From: Candidatus Omnitrophota bacterium
Lineage (GTDB): Bacteria > Omnitrophota > Gorgyraeia > Gygaellales > Profunditerraquicolaceae
NCBI GenBank assembly: GCA_018814745.1
Contig: JAHIZC010000129.1
Coordinates: forward strand, 1 to 11,711
DNA: 11,711 nucleotides
Direction: 5' to 3'
The notes under the pieces were generated by a model. The model was not told where the DNA came from, made no database searches, and saw only the letters and a list, made by a program, of their open reading frames with translations. Position numbers and translations under genes: made by a program. Below are positions 1,104 to 11,711 of the stretch, in pieces; the first letter of the stretch is position 1; every line of letters begins with the position of its first letter.

Positions 1104-2150
1104 ATGGAAATCAGAAAAATGCTTTTGCTCTGTATCGAAAATAGTGCCTCAGACTTACACATCACTGAAAACGAACCTCCTATTTTGCGTATCGACGGAA
1201 AATTATACCGGACTGACCACCCGAAATTAACCAAACAGAGCCTGAAGACCGCTATATACGCTGTGTTGACTGATGTGCAGAAAGAGATGCTTGAGCGCGA
1301 CTTAGAGCTGGACTTTTCGCTTGCTCTGCCCGGACTTGACAGATTCAGAGTCAACGTGCACATACAGAGGGGGTCAGTAGAAGCAGCTTTTAGGCGCGTT
1401 CCTCTGGAAGTACCCAGCTTAGCTGACCTGGGATTACCTCCTATGGTACTGGAGCTTGCTCGTAAACCCAATGGCTTAGTCTTAGTTACCGGCCCAACCG
1501 GCGTTGGAAAAACTACAACCCTGGCAGCAATTGTGAATCTGATTAATAGTGAAAGAGAATGCCTGATTATCACTATCGAAGATCCAATTGAGTTTATCTA
1601 TTCCAATAAAAAGAGTGTTATCAAACAAAGAGAAGTATACTCAGATACACGCTCTTTTGCCCAGTCCCTAAGGCACGCTTTAAGGCAGGATCCGGATGTA
1701 ATTATAGTAGGAGAGATGCGTGATTTAGAAACTATCTCAACTGCCTTAACAGCCGCAGAAACAGGACACCTGGTTTTAGCAACTCTGCATACCCCTGATG
1801 CCCCGCAAACCGTCGAGAGAATTATTGACGTCTTCCCGCCGCATCAACAACAACAGGTTAAACTCCAGTTAGCAGATTCATTGCAGGGTGTTGTATCTCA
1901 GTTGCTGCTTCCGCATGCTAGCGGTAAGGGGCGAGTACTCGCTACGGAAATCATGGTCGCAACCCCCGGGATTAGAAACCTTATCCGTGAGCAGGAAATA
2001 GAACAGATCCCCACCCTTATGCAGACAGGAAGCAAATACGGTATGAAAACCATGGATAAATGCCTGAAGGAACTAACTCAAAAAGGAATTGTTACTTTAG
2101 ATACCGCTATGTCTAAAGTTAAGAATATGGAGGAATTCAAACAGCTGTGA
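1104..2150 (+). CDS. pilT: Type IV pilus retraction ATPase PilT
   Basis: Hexameric cytoplasmic ATPase that powers pilus retraction (twitching motility, DNA uptake). The 348 residues match usual PilT length. Visible in order: the N-terminal domain opening with ASDLHI (15-20), Walker A GPTGVGKT (130-137), Asp box ITIEDPIEF (156-164), Walker B DPDVIIVGEMRD (196-207), His box TGHLVLATLHT (220-230), and GIRNLIRE (289-296), which matches the AIRNLIRE retraction signature separating PilT from extension ATPases of the PilB type. AAGGA lies about 7 bases before the ATG. The gene sits between the large and small subunits of an aconitase-family enzyme with no pilus gene nearby, so its position is odd while its sequence is ordinary. 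By eye it is somewhat GC-richer than its neighbours. A PilU-like paralogue cannot be excluded, but the motif set fits PilT. Confidence 0.96.
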   Translation: MEIRKMLLLCIENSASDLHITENEPPILRIDGKLYRTDHPKLTKQSLKTAIYAVLTDVQKEMLERDLELDFSLALPGLDRFRVNVHIQRGSVEAAFRRVPLEVPSLADLGLPPMVLELARKPNGLVLVTGPTGVGKTTTLAAIVNLINSERECLIITIEDPIEFIYSNKKSVIKQREVYSDTRSFAQSLRHALRQDPDVIIVGEMRDLETISTALTAAETGHLVLATLHTPDAPQTVERIIDVFPPHQQQQVKLQLADSLQGVVSQLLLPHASGKGRVLATEIMVATPGIRNLIREQEIEQIPTLMQTGSKYGMKTMDKCLKELTQKGIVTLDTAMSKVKNMEEFKQL

Positions 2151-3805: not shown

Positions 3806-4726
3806 ATGAAGATAAGTATAATCGGAGCGGGAAATGTTGGAAGTACCACAGCGATGCGTCTTGCTCAGGAAGGGCTTGGCGAAATCATCCTGGTAGATGT
3901 GGTTAAAGGCTTGGCTCAAGGTAAAGCCTTTGATTTAGAAGATGCCCGCTCAACCCTAAAAATCCCCTACAATATACAAGGAAGCGATGATATCAATAGT
4001 ATTAAAATTTCTGATATCGTTGTAATTACTGCTGGCCTACCTAGGAAACCCGGAATGACCCGCGAGGATTTAGTAAGCAAAAATGCGCTGATATTAAAAG
4101 ATGTCTGCGAAAATATAAAAAAGTTAGCTCCGGAATCAATCATTATAGTTGTCACAAACCCACTTGATTTAATGACTTACTTTGCCCTCACGCTCACCGG
4201 CTTTAAATCCGGTAAAGTAATTGGCATGGGTGCCAGCCTTGATGCGGCGAGATTTGCTAACTTAATCAGTAAAGAGCTTAATATTCCGTTTTCTGATATC
4301 GAAACATCTGTTATCGGAAGCCACGGACAGGGGATGATCCCTTTAACTAGATTCACTACAATAAAAGGGGTAAGCTTAGAAGAATATTCGGACGATAAAA
4401 AAACTCATGCCCTGGTAGACAAAACCATTGGCCGGGGTGCTGAAATTGTATCACTATTAGGCAGCGGTAGTGCTTATTTTGCGCCTTCTGCGGCAATAAC
4501 TGCTTTAGTTAAATGTATAGTGAAAAACGAAAAAAGAACTATTGGAGTTTGTACATACCTCGACGGAGAATACGGTATAAATGATCTGTGTATCGGTGTA
4601 CCCTGTCGTATCGGAAGAGAAGGGATAGAGAAAATTATTGAATTAGAATTAAATAAAACAGAACTAGAAACATTGAAAAAATCTGCGGAAGCAGTTAGAA
4701 AAAGCATAGAGCTTTTACCTTTATGA
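3806..4726 (+). CDS. mdh: Malate dehydrogenase (LDH-like type)
   Basis: Interconverts malate and oxaloacetate with NAD; cytoplasmic. The 306 residues match the LDH-like bacterial MDH class. GAGNVGS (7-13) forms the Rossmann loop, and D31 at the end of the second strand predicts NAD rather than NADP. Substrate-binding arginines are visible: R80 and R86 in LPRKPGMTRED and R149 in LDAARF. The arginine in the TRED segment marks malate rather than lactate specificity. N118 (TNPLD), D146 and catalytic H173 (GSHGQGM) are present. The residue after HG is Gln where Asp or Glu is usual, a mild variation outside the catalytic dyad. No convincing Shine-Dalgarno is seen; the start is 6 bases after the icd stop, suggesting coupled translation. 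It ends in an ATGA overlap with the next gene. Confidence 0.95.
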   Translation: MKISIIGAGNVGSTTAMRLAQEGLGEIILVDVVKGLAQGKAFDLEDARSTLKIPYNIQGSDDINSIKISDIVVITAGLPRKPGMTREDLVSKNALILKDVCENIKKLAPESIIIVVTNPLDLMTYFALTLTGFKSGKVIGMGASLDAARFANLISKELNIPFSDIETSVIGSHGQGMIPLTRFTTIKGVSLEEYSDDKKTHALVDKTIGRGAEIVSLLGSGSAYFAPSAAITALVKCIVKNEKRTIGVCTYLDGEYGINDLCIGVPCRIGREGIEKIIELELNKTELETLKKSAEAVRKSIELLPL

Positions 4727-6018
4727 ACTACGACCTTACTATAATCGGAGCCGGATGGGCAGGATTCAATGCAGCTTTAAAAGCCAAAGAATTGGGCCTT
4801 AAGGTCTGCTTAATCGAAAAATCACATATCGGTGGAACATGTCTAAATGCCGGCTGCATACCTACTAAGGCATTAATCCATTCTGCAAAGGTTTATTCTA
4901 TATCTAAGAAGGCTGAGAGTTTTGGAATCGAAGGAAATAATCCAAATCCTAACTTCGCTAAAATCCAGGAAAGAAAAAATACAATCGTAAAGCAGCTGCA
5001 AAAAGGAATGCAATTCTTACTTAAAGGTATTGATTATATAAACGCTGAAGCTAAAATACTCAGTAATCAAGAAATTCAAGTAGGTGATCAGAATATTAAA
5101 ACAAAATTCATTCTCATCGCTTGTGGATCTATGCCGATAGAACTTAAGAATCTAAAATTTGACGGAAAAAAAGTAGTCTCAAGCGATGATATTTTAAAAA
5201 TAAAAGAAACTCCGAAGAATCTACTGGTAATTGGAGGTGGGGTTATAGGATGCGAATTCGCCAGTCTATTCTCTAATCTTGGGGCTCAAGTTTCAATAGT
5301 AGAGATGATGCCTCAACTATTACCCGGAGTAGATAATGAAGTAGCTAGAAAAATAGAATCGCTACTTAAAAAGAAGCGGATTAAGATAAGTACAAATACA
5401 GATGCCACCACTGTAGACTTAAGTAACTATGATTTAGTGTTGCTTTGTATCGGAAGGACCCCTAACGCAGGAAACTTAGAACTGGAAAAAATCGGTGTGA
5501 AACTTGAAAAGAATAAAATTATCGTCGATGATTACTTAAAAACTAGTGTAGATAATATTTACGCTGCCGGTGACTGCACCGGAAAAACTATGCTTGCCCA
5601 TTATGCAGCTTACCAGGGAACAGTGGCTGCTGAAAATATTGCTAAACCTGCTAATTCCAAAAAAGCAGACAACACAAACGTACCTAGCTGCATTTTTACT
5701 GATCCGGAGATTGCCAGCGTAGGCTTGAGTGAAGAGGACGCGAAAAACAAAAGTATAGATATCAAAATAAACAAATTTGATTTCCTGGCATCCGGGATGG
5801 CGCGCATACAGGACGAAACCGATGGTTTTGTCAAAATCATTTCCAATAGCAAGACAGATCAGGTATTAGGCGCTTCGATAATCGGCCCTAAAGCAACGGA
5901 ATTAATCGCCGTATTAGCCCTTGCAGTATCTACTCATTTAAAATCTTCTCAAATCAAAGATACTATCTTTGCCCATCCCACGCTATCTGAGTCGATTGAG
6001 GAAGCGCTCAAACACTAA
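4723..6018 (+). CDS. lpdA: Dihydrolipoyl dehydrogenase (E3), compact form
   Basis: FAD flavoprotein that reoxidises dihydrolipoyl groups on 2-oxoacid dehydrogenase or glycine cleavage carriers, passing electrons to NAD. Visible: FAD-binding GAGWAG (9-14), redox-active disulfide C40/C45 in GGTCLNAGCIPTK, NAD-binding GGGVIG (171-176), the second FAD motif AAGDC (281-285), and the C-terminal catalytic dyad H418/E423 in HPTLSESIEE. At 431 residues it is shorter than the usual 460-475. The missing stretch lies in the NAD domain between ISTNTDAT and LCIGRTPN, where several strands are reduced to a short link. The active-site set is complete, so it should be functional. It overlaps mdh by four bases and precedes lipB and a lipoyl carrier, which supports E3 over a mercuric or glutathione reductase. 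GAGGAAG near its end may serve lipB. Confidence 0.94.
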   Translation: MNYDLTIIGAGWAGFNAALKAKELGLKVCLIEKSHIGGTCLNAGCIPTKALIHSAKVYSISKKAESFGIEGNNPNPNFAKIQERKNTIVKQLQKGMQFLLKGIDYINAEAKILSNQEIQVGDQNIKTKFILIACGSMPIELKNLKFDGKKVVSSDDILKIKETPKNLLVIGGGVIGCEFASLFSNLGAQVSIVEMMPQLLPGVDNEVARKIESLLKKKRIKISTNTDATTVDLSNYDLVLLCIGRTPNAGNLELEKIGVKLEKNKIIVDDYLKTSVDNIYAAGDCTGKTMLAHYAAYQGTVAAENIAKPANSKKADNTNVPSCIFTDPEIASVGLSEEDAKNKSIDIKINKFDFLASGMARIQDETDGFVKIISNSKTDQVLGASIIGPKATELIAVLALAVSTHLKSSQIKDTIFAHPTLSESIEEALKH

Positions 6019-6020
6019 AT

Positions 6021-6716
6021 ATGGATTGTAAAATATTCGACCTGGGTTTAATTCAGTTTAAACCGGCATGGTATTTTCAAAAAGAGGCCTTTAAAGCTGT
6101 AAAGCATGGCTATATTGATTCAGCATTAATAATCTGCCAGCATTATCCGGTAATCACTCTAGGGCGGTGTGCGAATAGAGATAATATTCTATGCTCGAAT
6201 AAAGTATTAGCCTTTAAAGGAATTCGGGTATTTGAAATAGAAAGAGGTGGAGACGTAACTTACCACGGCCCGGGACAACTTACAATTTACCCCATATTTA
6301 ATCTTAATTATCTAAAAAAAGACATTCATTGGTATCTTAGGCAATTAGAAGAAATAACTATTAACTCCCTGAAAGATTTTGGAATAACTAGCGAGAGGCG
6401 GCCTGGCCTTACAGGGGTTTGGGTTGGTAATAAAAAGATAGCTTCTATTGGCATTACGGTTAAGAATTGGATAACCTATCATGGAGTAAGTATTAATATC
6501 AAATCCGAAGATTTGGCAAATTTTAAGTTAATTACGCCATGCGGCTTAGATATAGAGATGACTTGTTTAGAAAAAGAGTTAGGCAGGCATATAGCTATAA
6601 CAGACTTAAAAAATGACTTAATACGCAGATTCGGGGGCAGCCTTAGCTTTGGCTCCAAAGACGCTTCTGCTTTGGGAGTAAAGACGGCCCCATTAATGGA
6701 GGAGGCGAGGAGATGA
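6021..6716 (+). CDS. lipB: Octanoyl-ACP:protein octanoyltransferase
   Basis: Transfers octanoyl from ACP to the target lysine of lipoyl domains, the first step of endogenous lipoate assembly before LipA. Signature RGGDVTYHGPGQL is at 75-87, the catalytic lysine is in KKIAS (K139), and the acyl-thioester cysteine is C174 in ITPCG. HYPVITLGR (41-49) is also typical. At 231 residues there is a tail of roughly 20 residues after the catalytic domain (LSFGSKDASALGV region) not needed by the family; its DNA holds the strong ribosome-binding site of the next gene. Two bases separate it from lpdA, and it overlaps the lipoyl carrier by ATGA. Placement beside both E3 and a lipoyl domain implies that the carrier is a dedicated substrate (inference). 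No lipA is in the window. Confidence 0.96.
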   Translation: MDCKIFDLGLIQFKPAWYFQKEAFKAVKHGYIDSALIICQHYPVITLGRCANRDNILCSNKVLAFKGIRVFEIERGGDVTYHGPGQLTIYPIFNLNYLKKDIHWYLRQLEEITINSLKDFGITSERRPGLTGVWVGNKKIASIGITVKNWITYHGVSINIKSEDLANFKLITPCGLDIEMTCLEKELGRHIAITDLKNDLIRRFGGSLSFGSKDASALGVKTAPLMEEARR

Positions 6717-6943
6717 CAAAGGTAGTTTTACCTGATTTGGGTGAAGGAATTGAAAAGGCAACGCTGTCCTACTGGTATTTTAAAGTAGGGGAGAAGGTAA
6801 ATGAGAAGGATGATCTGGTAGAGTTGGCTACTGATAAGGCCACATTTAATCTTCCAAGTCCTGCCACTGGAACAGTTACAGAGATTTTCTTTCAGGAGGG
6901 AGACACGGTTAAGCCCGGAGATACCTTAGCTGCAATAGAATAA
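6713..6943 (+). CDS. Free-standing lipoyl carrier domain (E2-like, 76 aa)
   Basis: A single biotinyl/lipoyl domain with nothing attached. VVLPDLGEGIEKATL at the N-terminus is the classic opening of E2 subunits of 2-oxoacid dehydrogenases. The modified lysine is K42 in ATDKATF, and the mirror-symmetric second half ends in EGDTVKPGDTLAAIE. Complete E2 proteins run beyond 370 residues with peripheral-subunit-binding and acyltransferase domains. Here a stop follows at once and a terminator begins about 20 bases later, so this is a true short gene rather than a readable frameshift. GGAGGAGG lies 7 bases before the ATG, the strongest ribosome-binding site in the window, suggesting high expression. 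LipB directly upstream would load it and Lpd would reoxidise it. Partner enzyme unknown: it may lend its lipoyl arm to E1/E2 units elsewhere. A biotin carrier is unlikely, as the MKM motif is absent. Confidence 0.9.
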   Translation: MTKVVLPDLGEGIEKATLSYWYFKVGEKVNEKDDLVELATDKATFNLPSPATGTVTEIFFQEGDTVKPGDTLAAIE

Positions 6944-7320: not shown

Positions 7321-7914
7321 ATGTTCTATTATATAGCCAGGCCTATAGTTATAGCGATATTGAAACTGATCTTTAGGTTTAAGGTAGAAGGGTTGGAGAA
7401 CTTGCCTAGCAAAACCAACTTTATAGTAGTTGCTAATCATAGCAGTTATCTCGACCCTGTGCTGGTTGGGGCTGCAATACCTAGAAAGATCTACTGGATA
7501 ACGATGAGGTCTCTTTTTAGCTACCCCTGGTTACGATGGTTGATGGCGATTACGAGAACACTTCCTACGGGTGAGGCATCAAAAAGGGCAATTGATTTAC
7601 TGATGAAAGATAAATTCATCGGCATATTCCCGGAGGGAAAGCGTTCTGAGGACGGCAAACTCACAGAATTCAGAAGAGGAGCAGCGCTATTGGCAATTAA
7701 AACAGGCAGGCCGATTGTACCTTGCGCAATCCTGGGAGGATATGATGTCCTCTCAAAAAGAACTGTATTCTCGAGATTTGCACGCATAAAAGTAAAAATA
7801 GGAAAACCGACGTTTTTATCAAAAGAGTTTACGGATGTAATAGATGACCTGGCCCTACAGGAAGGTATTTTCGAAGTCAAGAACAGAATACAGGAGATGA
7901 TGCATGCCGGATAA
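7321..7914 (+). CDS. plsC: PlsC-family 1-acyl-sn-glycerol-3-phosphate acyltransferase
   Basis: Membrane-associated acyltransferase of the LPLAT family, which moves a fatty acyl group from ACP or CoA to a lysophosphatidate-like acceptor. The catalytic HX4D motif is NHSSYLD (H40, D45). The acceptor-phosphate motif is FPEGKRS (103-109), and PIVPCAI (131-137) is the usual fourth block. Residues 1-20 form a short hydrophobic amphipathic anchor (ARPIVIAILKLIFRF). The 197 residues match small bacterial PlsC proteins. AAGGGG lies about 5 bases before the ATG. It overlaps the reductase fusion by 11 bases. Its position suggests the acceptor may be a special lipid handled by this cluster rather than, or in addition to, ordinary phospholipid synthesis (inference). 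The acceptor cannot be read from the sequence. Confidence 0.92.
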   Translation: MFYYIARPIVIAILKLIFRFKVEGLENLPSKTNFIVVANHSSYLDPVLVGAAIPRKIYWITMRSLFSYPWLRWLMAITRTLPTGEASKRAIDLLMKDKFIGIFPEGKRSEDGKLTEFRRGAALLAIKTGRPIVPCAILGGYDVLSKRTVFSRFARIKVKIGKPTFLSKEFTDVIDDLALQEGIFEVKNRIQEMMHAG

Positions 7915-9493
7915 AGATTTAATCCATATAAAAGTTTCGCGTATTCTGCCCGCAGAAAAATGGAAAGTTATCCGCCTAATCACAAAAGTAAAAGACTTCC
8001 CTGCATTTGTGCCTTCCATAAAAGAGGTATCAGTCCTAAAAAAAACAAAGCATAAGTTGTTCACTAAATGGCGTGTGCAGATCAATCAAATACCAATCAG
8101 CTGGACTGAAGAAGACACTCTTGTACTTAAAGAAAACTATATCGCATTTAAAGCCATAGGAGGAGATTTAAGCCTATTCAAAGGAGAGTGGAGATTCTCC
8201 AAACATCCGCAAGGTACCCAGGTAGATGTAAATGTTGACTTAAAAGTCGGCATCCCGGCAATTACCGAGTTTGCCGATTCTTACGTTAAACAGATGCTTA
8301 CCCTTAACTTTGAGGCAATACTGAGCTCTGTAGAACGCCGTTTGATTTCAACAAAATATGCCAGTTACCGAAAAGGAGATACTAATAAAATAGCTGGTTT
8401 CGGTATTATCGGCCATTTATACAACTTTAACCATCTCGATAAATGCCTGAAGATGCTAAACCCCAGCTTTAAAATGCCTTCAAGGGAGTTTATCGGGCAG
8501 CTTTTCAATATTACTCCTTCCTTTAAACTCTATGATATCGTAGATTTTAAATCTCGAACCGGACAATCCGTTAATGGATGTTTTATAGTAGCTACATTCA
8601 TTCCGGATATGATGGAAAGAGACATCTGGTCAATATTCTCTAAAGTAGTTAGAGGCTGTAAGATTGCAGAGAAGCACGGAGTAGGAATAGTCAGTTTGGG
8701 TGGTTTTACCTCAATAGTAGCAGAAAGAATCGGAATCCAGATAACAGAAGAAGTTGATGTACCTGTTACAAGCGGCAACACCTTTACTGCCGCAATGGTA
8801 ATTGATGGAGTAGTAAAGGCGAGCATGCTTTTAGAAATTGACCTCGGGGCAGCAAAAGTAGCTATAATCGGTGGTACAGGAGATATCGGAAGTGGCTGTG
8901 CCCGGGTATTAGTAAGCAAGGTTAACCAGCTTATTATAACCGGCAGAACAAAATCAAATCTCAAGCGCCTGGGTAAAGAATTATCTAAAGAACGTAAGGC
9001 AAAAATCATAGCTACTACTGACAATGAAAAAGCAGTTAAGGATGCCGATATTATTATTGCTGCTGCAAGCGCTACTTCCTCAATCCTTCAAATTGACTGG
9101 TTTAAACCCGGGGCAATAATCTGCGACGTAGGCTACCCTAAGAATATCTCATATTCAGAAACAAGCCGGGATGACATTTTAGTTTTCTCCGGTGGCCTAA
9201 CAAAATCACCTACACCGATTAAATTTCCTATTGATATCGGTTTACCGGCAGCGGATACTATTTACGGTTGTTTCGCAGAGTCTATTATTCTGGCTTTAGA
9301 AAAGAGGTTTGAAAAGTTTAGTTTTGGAAGAGGGAACATAACAGCTGCTAAAATAGAAGAGATAAGAAACCTGGGCATTAAACACGGTTTTGAGGTATCT
9401 GATTTTTACTGGGGTAATAGACTGGTTGATAATTCAACAATAAATTGCATAAAAAAAGCAGGCTATAGATCAAAAAATGGAATTAAGTGCTGA
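7904..9493 (+). CDS. START/SRPBCC domain fused to long-chain acyl-ACP reductase (AAR-like)
   Basis: A 529-residue two-domain protein. Residues 1-150 resemble SRPBCC/cyclase-COQ10 proteins: IHIKVSRILPAEKWKVI, then DFPAFVPSIKEV, a beta-rich middle and a closing helix after ADSYVKQML, a fold that encloses lipids or polyketides. Residues 163-505 track cyanobacterial acyl-ACP reductase: FGIIGHL (166-172), FIPDMM (232-237), KHGVGIVSLGGFTSI (257-271), TSGNTFTA (289-296), nucleotide loop GGTGDIGS (323-330), GYPKN (410-414), GCFAES (455-460) and FGRGNIT (474-480). C456 aligns with the catalytic cysteine (C294) acylated in Synechococcus AAR, so reduction of acyl-ACP or acyl-CoA to a fatty aldehyde with NADPH is expected. 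A tail of about 25 residues follows. AGGAG lies 7 bases before the ATG. Overlaps plsC by 11 and the GMC gene by 17 bases. The fusion looks unusual to me; reductase identity is confident, substrate is not. Confidence 0.88.
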   Translation: MPDKDLIHIKVSRILPAEKWKVIRLITKVKDFPAFVPSIKEVSVLKKTKHKLFTKWRVQINQIPISWTEEDTLVLKENYIAFKAIGGDLSLFKGEWRFSKHPQGTQVDVNVDLKVGIPAITEFADSYVKQMLTLNFEAILSSVERRLISTKYASYRKGDTNKIAGFGIIGHLYNFNHLDKCLKMLNPSFKMPSREFIGQLFNITPSFKLYDIVDFKSRTGQSVNGCFIVATFIPDMMERDIWSIFSKVVRGCKIAEKHGVGIVSLGGFTSIVAERIGIQITEEVDVPVTSGNTFTAAMVIDGVVKASMLLEIDLGAAKVAIIGGTGDIGSGCARVLVSKVNQLIITGRTKSNLKRLGKELSKERKAKIIATTDNEKAVKDADIIIAAASATSSILQIDWFKPGAIICDVGYPKNISYSETSRDDILVFSGGLTKSPTPIKFPIDIGLPAADTIYGCFAESIILALEKRFEKFSFGRGNITAAKIEEIRNLGIKHGFEVSDFYWGNRLVDNSTINCIKKAGYRSKNGIKC

Positions 9494-10784: not shown

Positions 10785-11711
10785 ATGAAAAAGGTGAAAG
10801 CTTTATTTTCCAATATTATTGAACTATTTAAAAATGTTAAGTTCTTCGGATTTTCCTATCTATTGCGATTAGGAAAGGCAAAAAAAACCGCAGATCAAAT
10901 TATACCGGGATTCTTCCTTACCCATGTAGTAAATTGTTTGCTAAATGTAGGCTTTTTTGAAAAGATCAGTAATAAAGGAATGGTTAACTTAGAGCTATTT
11001 AGCAAAGAGAAAAATCTTGATAAAAGAATTTTGGAGTTACTCTGCGATTACCTATTTACGTTAAGAATATTAAAAAAGAATAAATTAGATTACTCTTTAA
11101 CTAAAAGAGGGAAGTTTATTATTGAAATGTTAAGCGGCGTTTTTCGCATCATATATTCATTTGAGGATATCTTTCATAATTTAGAATCATTGCTAAAAAA
11201 AGAAAAAAATGTAGATAAGAATGCCGTTATAAATAGAAAATTTGAAGCCAAAGGTACCGGCGAAACTGCTAAACTATTACCTTTCCCTATTATAATAGGA
11301 ATCATTAATAAACGTAAGTTAAATAGGGTTTTCGATATTGGGTGTGGTTCTGCTACACTTTTGATTGAATTATGTAAAAATAACTCCGAAATTATAGGCT
11401 ATGGGGTAGATAATTCGGCAGAGGCGATTAATTGTGGCAACGAACAAATAACGGAGGGCAATCTTAAAGGAAGAATTACGCTCTTCAAAGGAAACATTCT
11501 AAGGGATTTTGTAAATATAAGTGGTGAGTTGGACGATATTGATATAATAACTGCTACATTCGTATTACATGAATTGTTTTTTGAGCAGAAAGAAAAACTT
11601 ATAAATTTCTTGAAAGGACTGAGAGAAAGATTTAACAATAAGCCCTTGATGATTTGTGAAAATATAAAGCAGGGACAAAGAAGTTTATATAGCGATCCAG
11701 GGCTTTATTCA
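10785..11711 (+). CDS. SAM-dependent methyltransferase with N-terminal winged-helix region, 3'-truncated
   Basis: Open from the ATG at 10785 to the window end with no stop (309 codons), so the gene continues beyond. Residues 37-120 look like the winged-helix dimerisation part of plant- and polyketide-type O-methyltransferases: helix HVVNCLLNVGFFEKI, then LDKRILELLCDYL, and the wing YSLTKRGKFI. The Rossmann domain follows: motif I VFDIGCGSATLL (182-193), the acidic residue D209 in GVDNS that binds the SAM ribose, and TATFVLHEL (256-264) near the motif IV-V region. Twelve bases separate it from the GMC gene; there is no clear Shine-Dalgarno. It is very AT-rich (one line near 11041 has about 22 percent G+C). 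The acceptor is unknown; in this context a hydroxylated or enolic lipid product would fit (inference). C-terminal active-site residues are not visible. Confidence 0.82.
   Translation, partial: MKKVKALFSNIIELFKNVKFFGFSYLLRLGKAKKTADQIIPGFFLTHVVNCLLNVGFFEKISNKGMVNLELFSKEKNLDKRILELLCDYLFTLRILKKNKLDYSLTKRGKFIIEMLSGVFRIIYSFEDIFHNLESLLKKEKNVDKNAVINRKFEAKGTGETAKLLPFPIIIGIINKRKLNRVFDIGCGSATLLIELCKNNSEIIGYGVDNSAEAINCGNEQITEGNLKGRITLFKGNILRDFVNISGELDDIDIITATFVLHELFFEQKEKLINFLKGLRERFNNKPLMICENIKQGQRSLYSDPGLYS

Follow-up and report, generated by a model that had tools for sequence, protein, structure and literature searches.

A START domain joined to an acyl-ACP reductase in Omnitrophota, and its linkage to histidine kinase genes

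What does an acyl-ACP reductase (AAR) gain from a START/SRPBCC lipid-pocket domain placed ahead of it on the same chain? The question is raised by an 11,711-nucleotide stretch of DNA (here, the window) from an Omnitrophota MAG of 1.1 Mb in 247 contigs, estimated to be 81% complete. Members of this phylum are largely uncultured, and their biology is known mostly from genomes. We favor, with a probability of about 0.6, the answer that the protein is a reductive-release enzyme in which a chain on an acyl carrier would be converted to an aldehyde at the AAR half, served by the START pocket, within a dedicated lipid or polyketide pathway. Both domains are already known, as is the joining of an AAR-type reductase to a partner domain. 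What appears to be new, in that we did not find it in the literature searched, is START as the AAR partner, spread through one phylum, and the linkage of this fusion to a kinase gene.

The fusion protein and its distribution

The START half scores above the gathering cut-off of PF03364, and its helix-grip fold is supported by Pfam and structure matches (Table 1). The AAR fold spans the full reductase length, and this half carries both the glycine-rich GGTGDIGS and C456, the equivalent of the catalytic cysteine; the role of C294 in AAR is described in the available part of PMC9594044. The two-domain AlphaFold model (pTM 0.85) has a single unbroken helix, residues 118 to 156, heading into the AAR domain. 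Against TIGR04058, the AAR half scores 179 bits, far below the equivalog cut-off of 449.7; none of 384 Omnitrophota genomes has a match above that cut-off, and one of 14 control genomes passes. The NCBIfam model for PigE gives nearly the same score on the fusion as the AAR model (176 bits), with its match limited to the reductase part (profile positions 2 to 354 of 837), and no aminotransferase domain is among the 19 Pfam families matched at E <= 1.

Table 1. Features of the fusion gene and adjoining genes, in window coordinates
Feature	Positions	Strand	Basis or remark
PlsC-type acyltransferase, 197 aa	7321..7914	+	PF01553, E 2.8e-27; stop overlaps fusion start by 11 nt
START/SRPBCC-AAR fusion, 529 aa	7904..9493	+	profile, alignment and structure matches
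START/SRPBCC helix-grip domain, residues 4-155	7913..8368	+	
Junction, residues 136-165	8309..8398	+	end of long START helix (118-156) and entry to AAR domain
AAR domain, residues 165-510	8396..9433	+	
GGTGDIGS nucleotide-binding motif, residues 323-330	8870..8893	+	
Cys456 codon	9269..9271	+	aligned with catalytic Cys294 of cyanobacterial AAR
GMC-type FAD oxidoreductase, 431 aa	9477..10772	+	PF00732, 1e-23; PF05199, 4e-11; start overlaps fusion end by 17 nt
SAM-dependent methyltransferase, contig-cut	10785..11711	+	PF13847, 5.2e-8

Much of the first-pass annotation, which had described a START/SRPBCC domain fused in one frame to a cyanobacterial-type AAR, is upheld. The single frame is real, Pfam and structure matches bear out the N-terminal half, the NCBIfam match and the AAR fold bear out the C-terminal half, and the alignment pairs C456 with C294 of AAR. 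The label "cyanobacterial-type" also stands, in that our careful tree joins the fused AAR domains with cyanobacterial AAR, represented by a single long-branched row. These points make the earlier interpretation partly supported; what it proposed for the pocket is taken up below as interpretation. We regard the fusion itself, its folds, its cysteine and nucleotide motifs, and the gene linkage in relatives as established.

The possibility of an assembly artefact or a chance fusion was rejected, given that the same architecture recurs in database homologues and across the sampled Omnitrophota genomes. Our database search scored the 8000 candidates sharing most words and gave 843 matches, of which the best 120, those listed, are all full-length by query coverage. 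Among those listed, every one with an organism name is from Omnitrophica or Omnitrophota, including P0001 (99% identical; Candidatus Omnitrophica). The fusion finds a match of some kind in 139 of the 384 Omnitrophota genomes sampled; in 58, counted from the genome table, the match is full-length at 41% identity or more. The 58 come from the window's own family, own order, and own class and from other parts of the phylum; the count omits contig-cut matches (G014, G380, G258, and G038) and weaker ones at 27 to 33% identity (G249, G119, G277, G087, and G292). The survey of databases for this architecture, proposed in the first-pass annotation, thus found it to be widespread in Omnitrophota; with the search limited as above, fusions may also occur outside the phylum. 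The published fusions of AAR-type reductases that we found have other partners. No report of a START-AAR fusion turned up in the literature searched (listed titles and abstract openings), nor did any paper there treat acyl-ACP reductase together with Omnitroph. One paper that mentions both Omnitroph and fatty aldehyde (PMC13170169) deals with unrelated matters in those passages.

Locus counts below refer to 34 loci, the window and fetched loci from a subset of the 58 fusion genomes, each with a fusion of at least 455 aa. L032 (contig-cut, 463 aa) enters these counts and stays out of the trees. L004, L047, and L048, whose contigs have the same lengths as those of L028, L003, and L006, are apparent duplicates of these and were counted once; L051 and L055 are close, from one genus, and both were counted. 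L008, with just the last 107 aa of a fusion, lies outside the 34. L005, where the frame is broken inside the fusion on a low-coverage contig, was excluded from both counts and trees. Its fusion reads as two overlapping frames (L005:974-2610) on a 3.5-kb contig at coverage 0.8, probably through a sequencing frameshift.

Conservation, junction, and ancestry

Eleven START residues are identical in all 34 fusions (W56, W67, E69, F82, G87, D88, L89, G94, W96, G104, and P118), which indicates that the START domain is under selection. Cys456 is kept in 32 of the 34, with Ser in its place in L028 and L029. These two (G002 and G004) are sister fusions, well conserved in the remainder, and L029 has a KS/CLF pair downstream of its Ser-bearing fusion. 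The structure alignment held 64 fusions (the window, 61 of the 120 listed proteins, and two loci) and 33 of 65 proteins from a separate database search.

All but one of the 34 fusions share the same spacing, exactly 30 residues counted from F136 through G165. Such a fixed junction, largely helical in the model, argues for a defined placement of the pocket relative to the reductase. It would fit allostery as well as channeling, and the START half could, instead of being a pocket for substrate or product, sense a regulatory ligand and so turn the reductase on or off. SRPBCC domains act elsewhere as ligand-gated switches, and structural matches of the START half include three abscisic acid receptors, PYL2, PYL3, and PYL9. 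However, a sensor kinase is already linked to the fusion in relatives; we consider the ligand-sensor reading unlikely.

The fused AAR domains come together as a single clade in the careful tree (27 rows, 96/96, recovered in 98% of 200 bootstrap trees), and this clade groups with the sole cyanobacterial AAR included, at 100/99. That tree holds 58 of the 74 rows of a quick tree, 16 long-branched or near-duplicate rows having been removed. The quick tree likewise places 33 fused rows on one side of a branch (SH-aLRT 94, unstarred; 99 with the cyanobacterial row included). Stand-alone AAR-like proteins, from Omnitrophota and other phyla, fall on the opposite side. We take the cyanobacterial placement as indicative, because it depends on one row with a long branch (1.95) and the remaining database rows came from one Omnitrophota query.

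Membership of the AAR half in the cyanobacterial branch, together with the structural match to 6jzy, an AAR-ADO complex, could be taken to favor alkane synthesis of the cyanobacterial kind, with START standing in for the hand-over of aldehyde to ADO. However, ADO (PF11266) has no match in any of the 384 Omnitrophota genomes; the same search is positive in 2 of 14 control genomes, including Synechococcus elongatus. Alkane synthesis is thereby strongly disfavored, and we hold it to be very improbable. Since this cyanobacterial end use is disfavored, the aldehyde is probably an intermediate for adjacent oxidoreductases, the acyltransferase, or other tailoring enzymes.

The two domains also meet outside the fusion. 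At six fetched loci (more appear in the table of 384 genomes), a separate SRPBCC gene lies immediately before an AAR gene of another lineage; the genes overlap by 4 to 8 nt in five (L033, L036, L037, L038, and L040) and are one base apart in L039. Direct origin of the fusion from such split pairs was tried and rejected: a single clade of fused and six split rows has a p-AU of 0.0089 in a test chosen after the quick tree. An ancestral SRPBCC/AAR pair, with deep duplication and loss, may be an alternative to direct descent. Unless such an ancestral pair was lost elsewhere, the phylogeny suggests that SRPBCC became associated with AAR in two AAR lineages, through fusion in one and through gene order in the other. 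Functional coupling of SRPBCC and AAR is likely, because the junction is invariant in length and SRPBCC genes directly precede AAR genes of this second lineage.

Some stand-alone AAR-like paralogues have Ser at the column of the catalytic Cys and an altered glycine motif: L044:10322-11341 (-), L045:9103-10128 (-), L046:8754-9674 (+), L032:1981-2970 (-), L035:3-974 (+), and others. Those of L044 and L045 lie near KS/CLF pairs. These paralogues may be non-reducing or regulatory versions.

Gene neighborhood and the linked kinase

In the window, the PlsC, fusion, and GMC genes overlap end to start, and the methyltransferase gene comes next. The PlsC protein has HX4D (HSSYLD) and EGKRS segments, which we take to be the PlsC motifs, and a PlsC-family gene is directly upstream of the fusion in 23 of 34 loci. 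The methyltransferase has a weak AprA-type winged-helix match (PF23589, 3.5e-5, below its cut-off), and its PDB matches include MppJ and 2-ketoarginine methyltransferase. At about residues 150 to 166, the GMC oxidoreductase has a four-Cys segment with a weak, below-cut-off 4Fe-4S score, which may bind a cluster or a metal.

The most conserved feature of the neighborhood is a kinase. In 28 loci the fusion is followed by three or more genes, and in 26 of these a co-directional histidine kinase gene, for a product of 600 aa or longer, is among the next three. The control, made up of genes for at least 150 aa that lie in these loci more than four genes away from the fusion and have three downstream genes themselves, gives 0 of 144. 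The two misses are L028, where the gene of kinase cluster c0 is contig-cut at 221 aa, and L042. Among the six loci with fewer than three downstream genes, the kinase is present in L006 and L055, contig-cut in L030, and absent from L002, L032, and the window. Counted by cluster, 30 of 34 loci have a co-directional c0 gene among the four that follow the fusion, and in 16 it is the very next gene. Three of the remaining loci, L002, L032, and the window, reach the contig end, whereas L042 lacks a c0 gene over that distance. The single-linkage cluster c0 also takes in a GAF-HD protein, and we therefore checked length and TM segments. All 30 c0 kinases have several N-terminal hydrophobic segments, four in the contig-cut L028 and seven or more elsewhere, and Pfam matches to HisKA_7TM, HisKA, HATPase, and GAF were found in the four linked kinases scanned of the 30. 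In the window's own MAG (81% complete), kinase matches are partial, with no full-length match, and the contig ends before any kinase gene.

Other neighbors are more variable. Accessory genes were counted from the second gene before the fusion to the ninth after it, as far as the contig reaches, with identities taken from representatives. Near the fusion, a response regulator is found in 21 of 34 loci, a methyltransferase of family c9 in 11, the KS/CLF family in 6 (with two or more copies in 4), an additional AAR-family gene in 6, an OleD/HpnA-like SDR in 5, a long SDR and FabG in 4 each, and ACP, FabZ-like, GMC, and aldehyde dehydrogenase genes in 3 each. No aminotransferase was recognized among the annotated neighbor families, which cover a subset of the neighboring genes.

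Combined, the fusion and its linked kinase hint at a regulated lipid or lipid-signal pathway. One can envision, compatibly with the enzyme chemistry proposed here, that the aldehyde is tailored into a small lipid signal and that the neighboring multi-TM kinase is its receptor, in the manner of the quorum-sensing systems Phc, Cqs, and Lqs. Cqs and Lqs are lipid-signal synthase-kinase systems. In support, the kinase is the most constant neighbor (the 26 of 28 above), it is kept in all 11 loci that lack PlsC directly upstream, and it stays constant while tailoring genes vary. The c9 methyltransferase adds to this, as one of the 120 homologues listed carries the JGI name "EF 3-hydroxypalmitic acid methyl ester biosynthesis protein," and Ralstonia makes and senses signals of the 3-hydroxypalmitic acid methyl ester type via PhcB and PhcS (available parts of PMC8578825 and PMC11960443). 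However, c9 is common in Omnitrophota (775 matches) and its NCBIfam matches are weak and generic; Pfam finds only HisKA_7TM in the sensor region (4 of 30 kinases); sensing of the state of the membrane, or control of unrelated genes, would be just as plausible a role for the kinase; and no kinase stands beside the fusion in the window's own genome, where the contig ends first. We regard the signal system as a possible but less likely reading. That c9 is PhcB was considered and set aside: a single JGI name, in a list of 120 homologues that mostly have none, is a hint only.

The Phc locus, the nearest example among the systems looked up, resembles the fusion loci in that a gene for a lipid product adjoins genes for a sensor histidine kinase and a response regulator, a likeness of gene order alone, and Phc, Cqs, and Lqs all differ from the fusion loci in synthase chemistry. 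No link of a START-AAR synthase family to signaling was found in print. The broader proposal, a phylum-wide lipid-aldehyde signaling module in which the START-AAR synthase makes a chain-derived aldehyde or tailored product and the multi-TM histidine kinase encoded alongside is its cognate receptor, we consider doubtful; if true, Omnitrophota would have a cell-density or membrane-status signal made by this synthase family. The close tie between fusion and kinase across the loci examined offers a tangible genetic starting point for tracing a lipid pathway or lipid signal in Omnitrophota.

The KS/CLF genes bear on a different reading, in which the START half is an aromatase/cyclase of the TcmN/ZhuI type and the fusion cyclizes and then reductively releases a type II polyketide. 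A KS with its active-site Cys is paired with a KS bearing Phe or Tyr at that position, which we take as a sign of the chain-length-factor subunit, in seven loci: L008, L029, L041, L044, L045, L062, and L064, where L044 and L045 are stand-alone AAR loci. KS/CLF genes are near only the 6 of 34 fusions counted above, and the window's own MAG has a single KS match, on another contig, and no KS/CLF pair (the genome being 81% complete and the contig broken at the locus). TcmN uses Tyr35, Arg69, and Arg82 (available part of PMC9014085); R24 is the sole invariant Arg in 16 aligned START domains, to which the TcmN positions were matched approximately, by net range offset. The FabG- and FabZ-like genes beside KS/CLF suggest a reduced, non-aromatic chain. 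An aromatase/cyclase role is, in our judgment, quite unlikely.

A gene of the aldehyde dehydrogenase family lies a few genes downstream of the fusion in L034 (3612-5174, minus strand; PF00171, 4.1e-62), the one family member scanned with Pfam, and the family also occurs in L051 and L052. Its place downstream of the fusion in these three loci is consistent with an aldehyde product.

Proposed reaction and known relatives

Substrate, product, the role of the pocket, and any regulatory link are what we infer for the fusion. We imagine that the chain is first transferred from its acyl carrier, of which ACP is the likeliest, to Cys456 of the AAR half, and that this half would then use NAD(P)H to reduce the resulting thioester to the aldehyde. 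This follows AAR chemistry as given in the available part of PMC9594044, where the chain passes from a phosphopantetheine carrier to Cys and is then reduced to aldehyde. ACP is favored as the carrier because the reductase of TamH gave no product from acyl-CoA, according to the same partly available source. The START half, held at fixed spacing on the continuous long helix, would be an acyl-chain pocket that receives or presents the carrier-bound chain; alternatively, it might keep the aldehyde until the next enzyme collects it. In M. smegmatis, the pocket of a START-like protein is deep and hydrophobic, and this protein and long-chain acyl-AcpM form a complex (available part of PMC9014085). 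Taken together with AAR off-loading chemistry, this analogy leads us to think it most likely that the START half takes the carrier-bound chain, or the released aldehyde, at the reductase.

The fusion would then work in a dedicated pathway for a lipid or polyketide, with PlsC and a variable set of tailoring enzymes encoded alongside: oxidoreductases of the GMC or OleD/HpnA-like SDR kind, aldehyde dehydrogenase, methyltransferases, and in some species a KS/CLF-ACP-KR-DH set. In most relatives examined, the same locus also contains a multi-TM histidine kinase gene, often with a response regulator. Against the reductive-release reading, we count the wide shortfall from the TIGR04058 cut-off, the Ser that replaces Cys in 2 of 34 fusions, the ACP gene near just 3 of 34, and the lack of a full-length kinase match or a KS/CLF pair in the window's own MAG.

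The closest reductase relative is cyanobacterial AAR (TIGR04058; PDB 6jzq, 6jzu, 6jzy, and 6jzz). Unlike it, the fusion adds START, scores far below the equivalog cut-off, sits in a different operon context, and belongs to a phylum sample in which ADO was not found. In joining an AAR-like reductase to a second domain on one chain, it resembles PigE (prodigiosin), TamH (tambjamine), and KecF (koreenceine), whose partner is an aminotransferase, whereas the partner in Omnitrophota is a START pocket. According to the parts of these sources available, TamH off-loads carrier-bound chains with an AAR-like domain fused to an aminotransferase (PMC9594044), the same role for the AAR-like domain of KecF is its authors' prediction (PMC6498172), PigE reduces a thioester (PMC8341465), and natural transaminase fusions are the topic of PMC10829540. 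The START-like protein that binds acyl-AcpM, MSMEG_5634/Rv0910 (7wa9), is stand-alone, mycobacterial, and without a reductase, and it is 9% identical over the alignment. TTHA0849 (2d4r), a PF03364 START protein whose PDB name is hypothetical protein, also stands alone. AAR-type reductases are valued as a route to aldehydes, alcohols, and alkanes, and the published natural fusions we found have aminotransferase partners. A built-in lipid pocket, if real, would be another route for passing a greasy chain to a reductase and a possible part for biocatalysis.

Two further gene groups upstream of the fusion recur among relatives. A lipoyl-domain protein of 76 aa that stands alone, with no E2 catalytic domain attached (window 6713-6943; PF00364), is encoded with dihydrolipoamide dehydrogenase and LipB (window 4723-6018 and 6021-6716), and each of the three families is found in 12 clustered loci including the window. 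Farther upstream, a gene for a T2SSE-family ATPase, PilT-like by reading (window 1104-2150), lies between genes for aconitase-type large (2-1093) and small (2217-2717) subunits. This block is followed by genes for isocitrate/isopropylmalate-type and malate/lactate-type dehydrogenases, and each of these families occurs in 9 to 11 clustered loci, in like order where seen.
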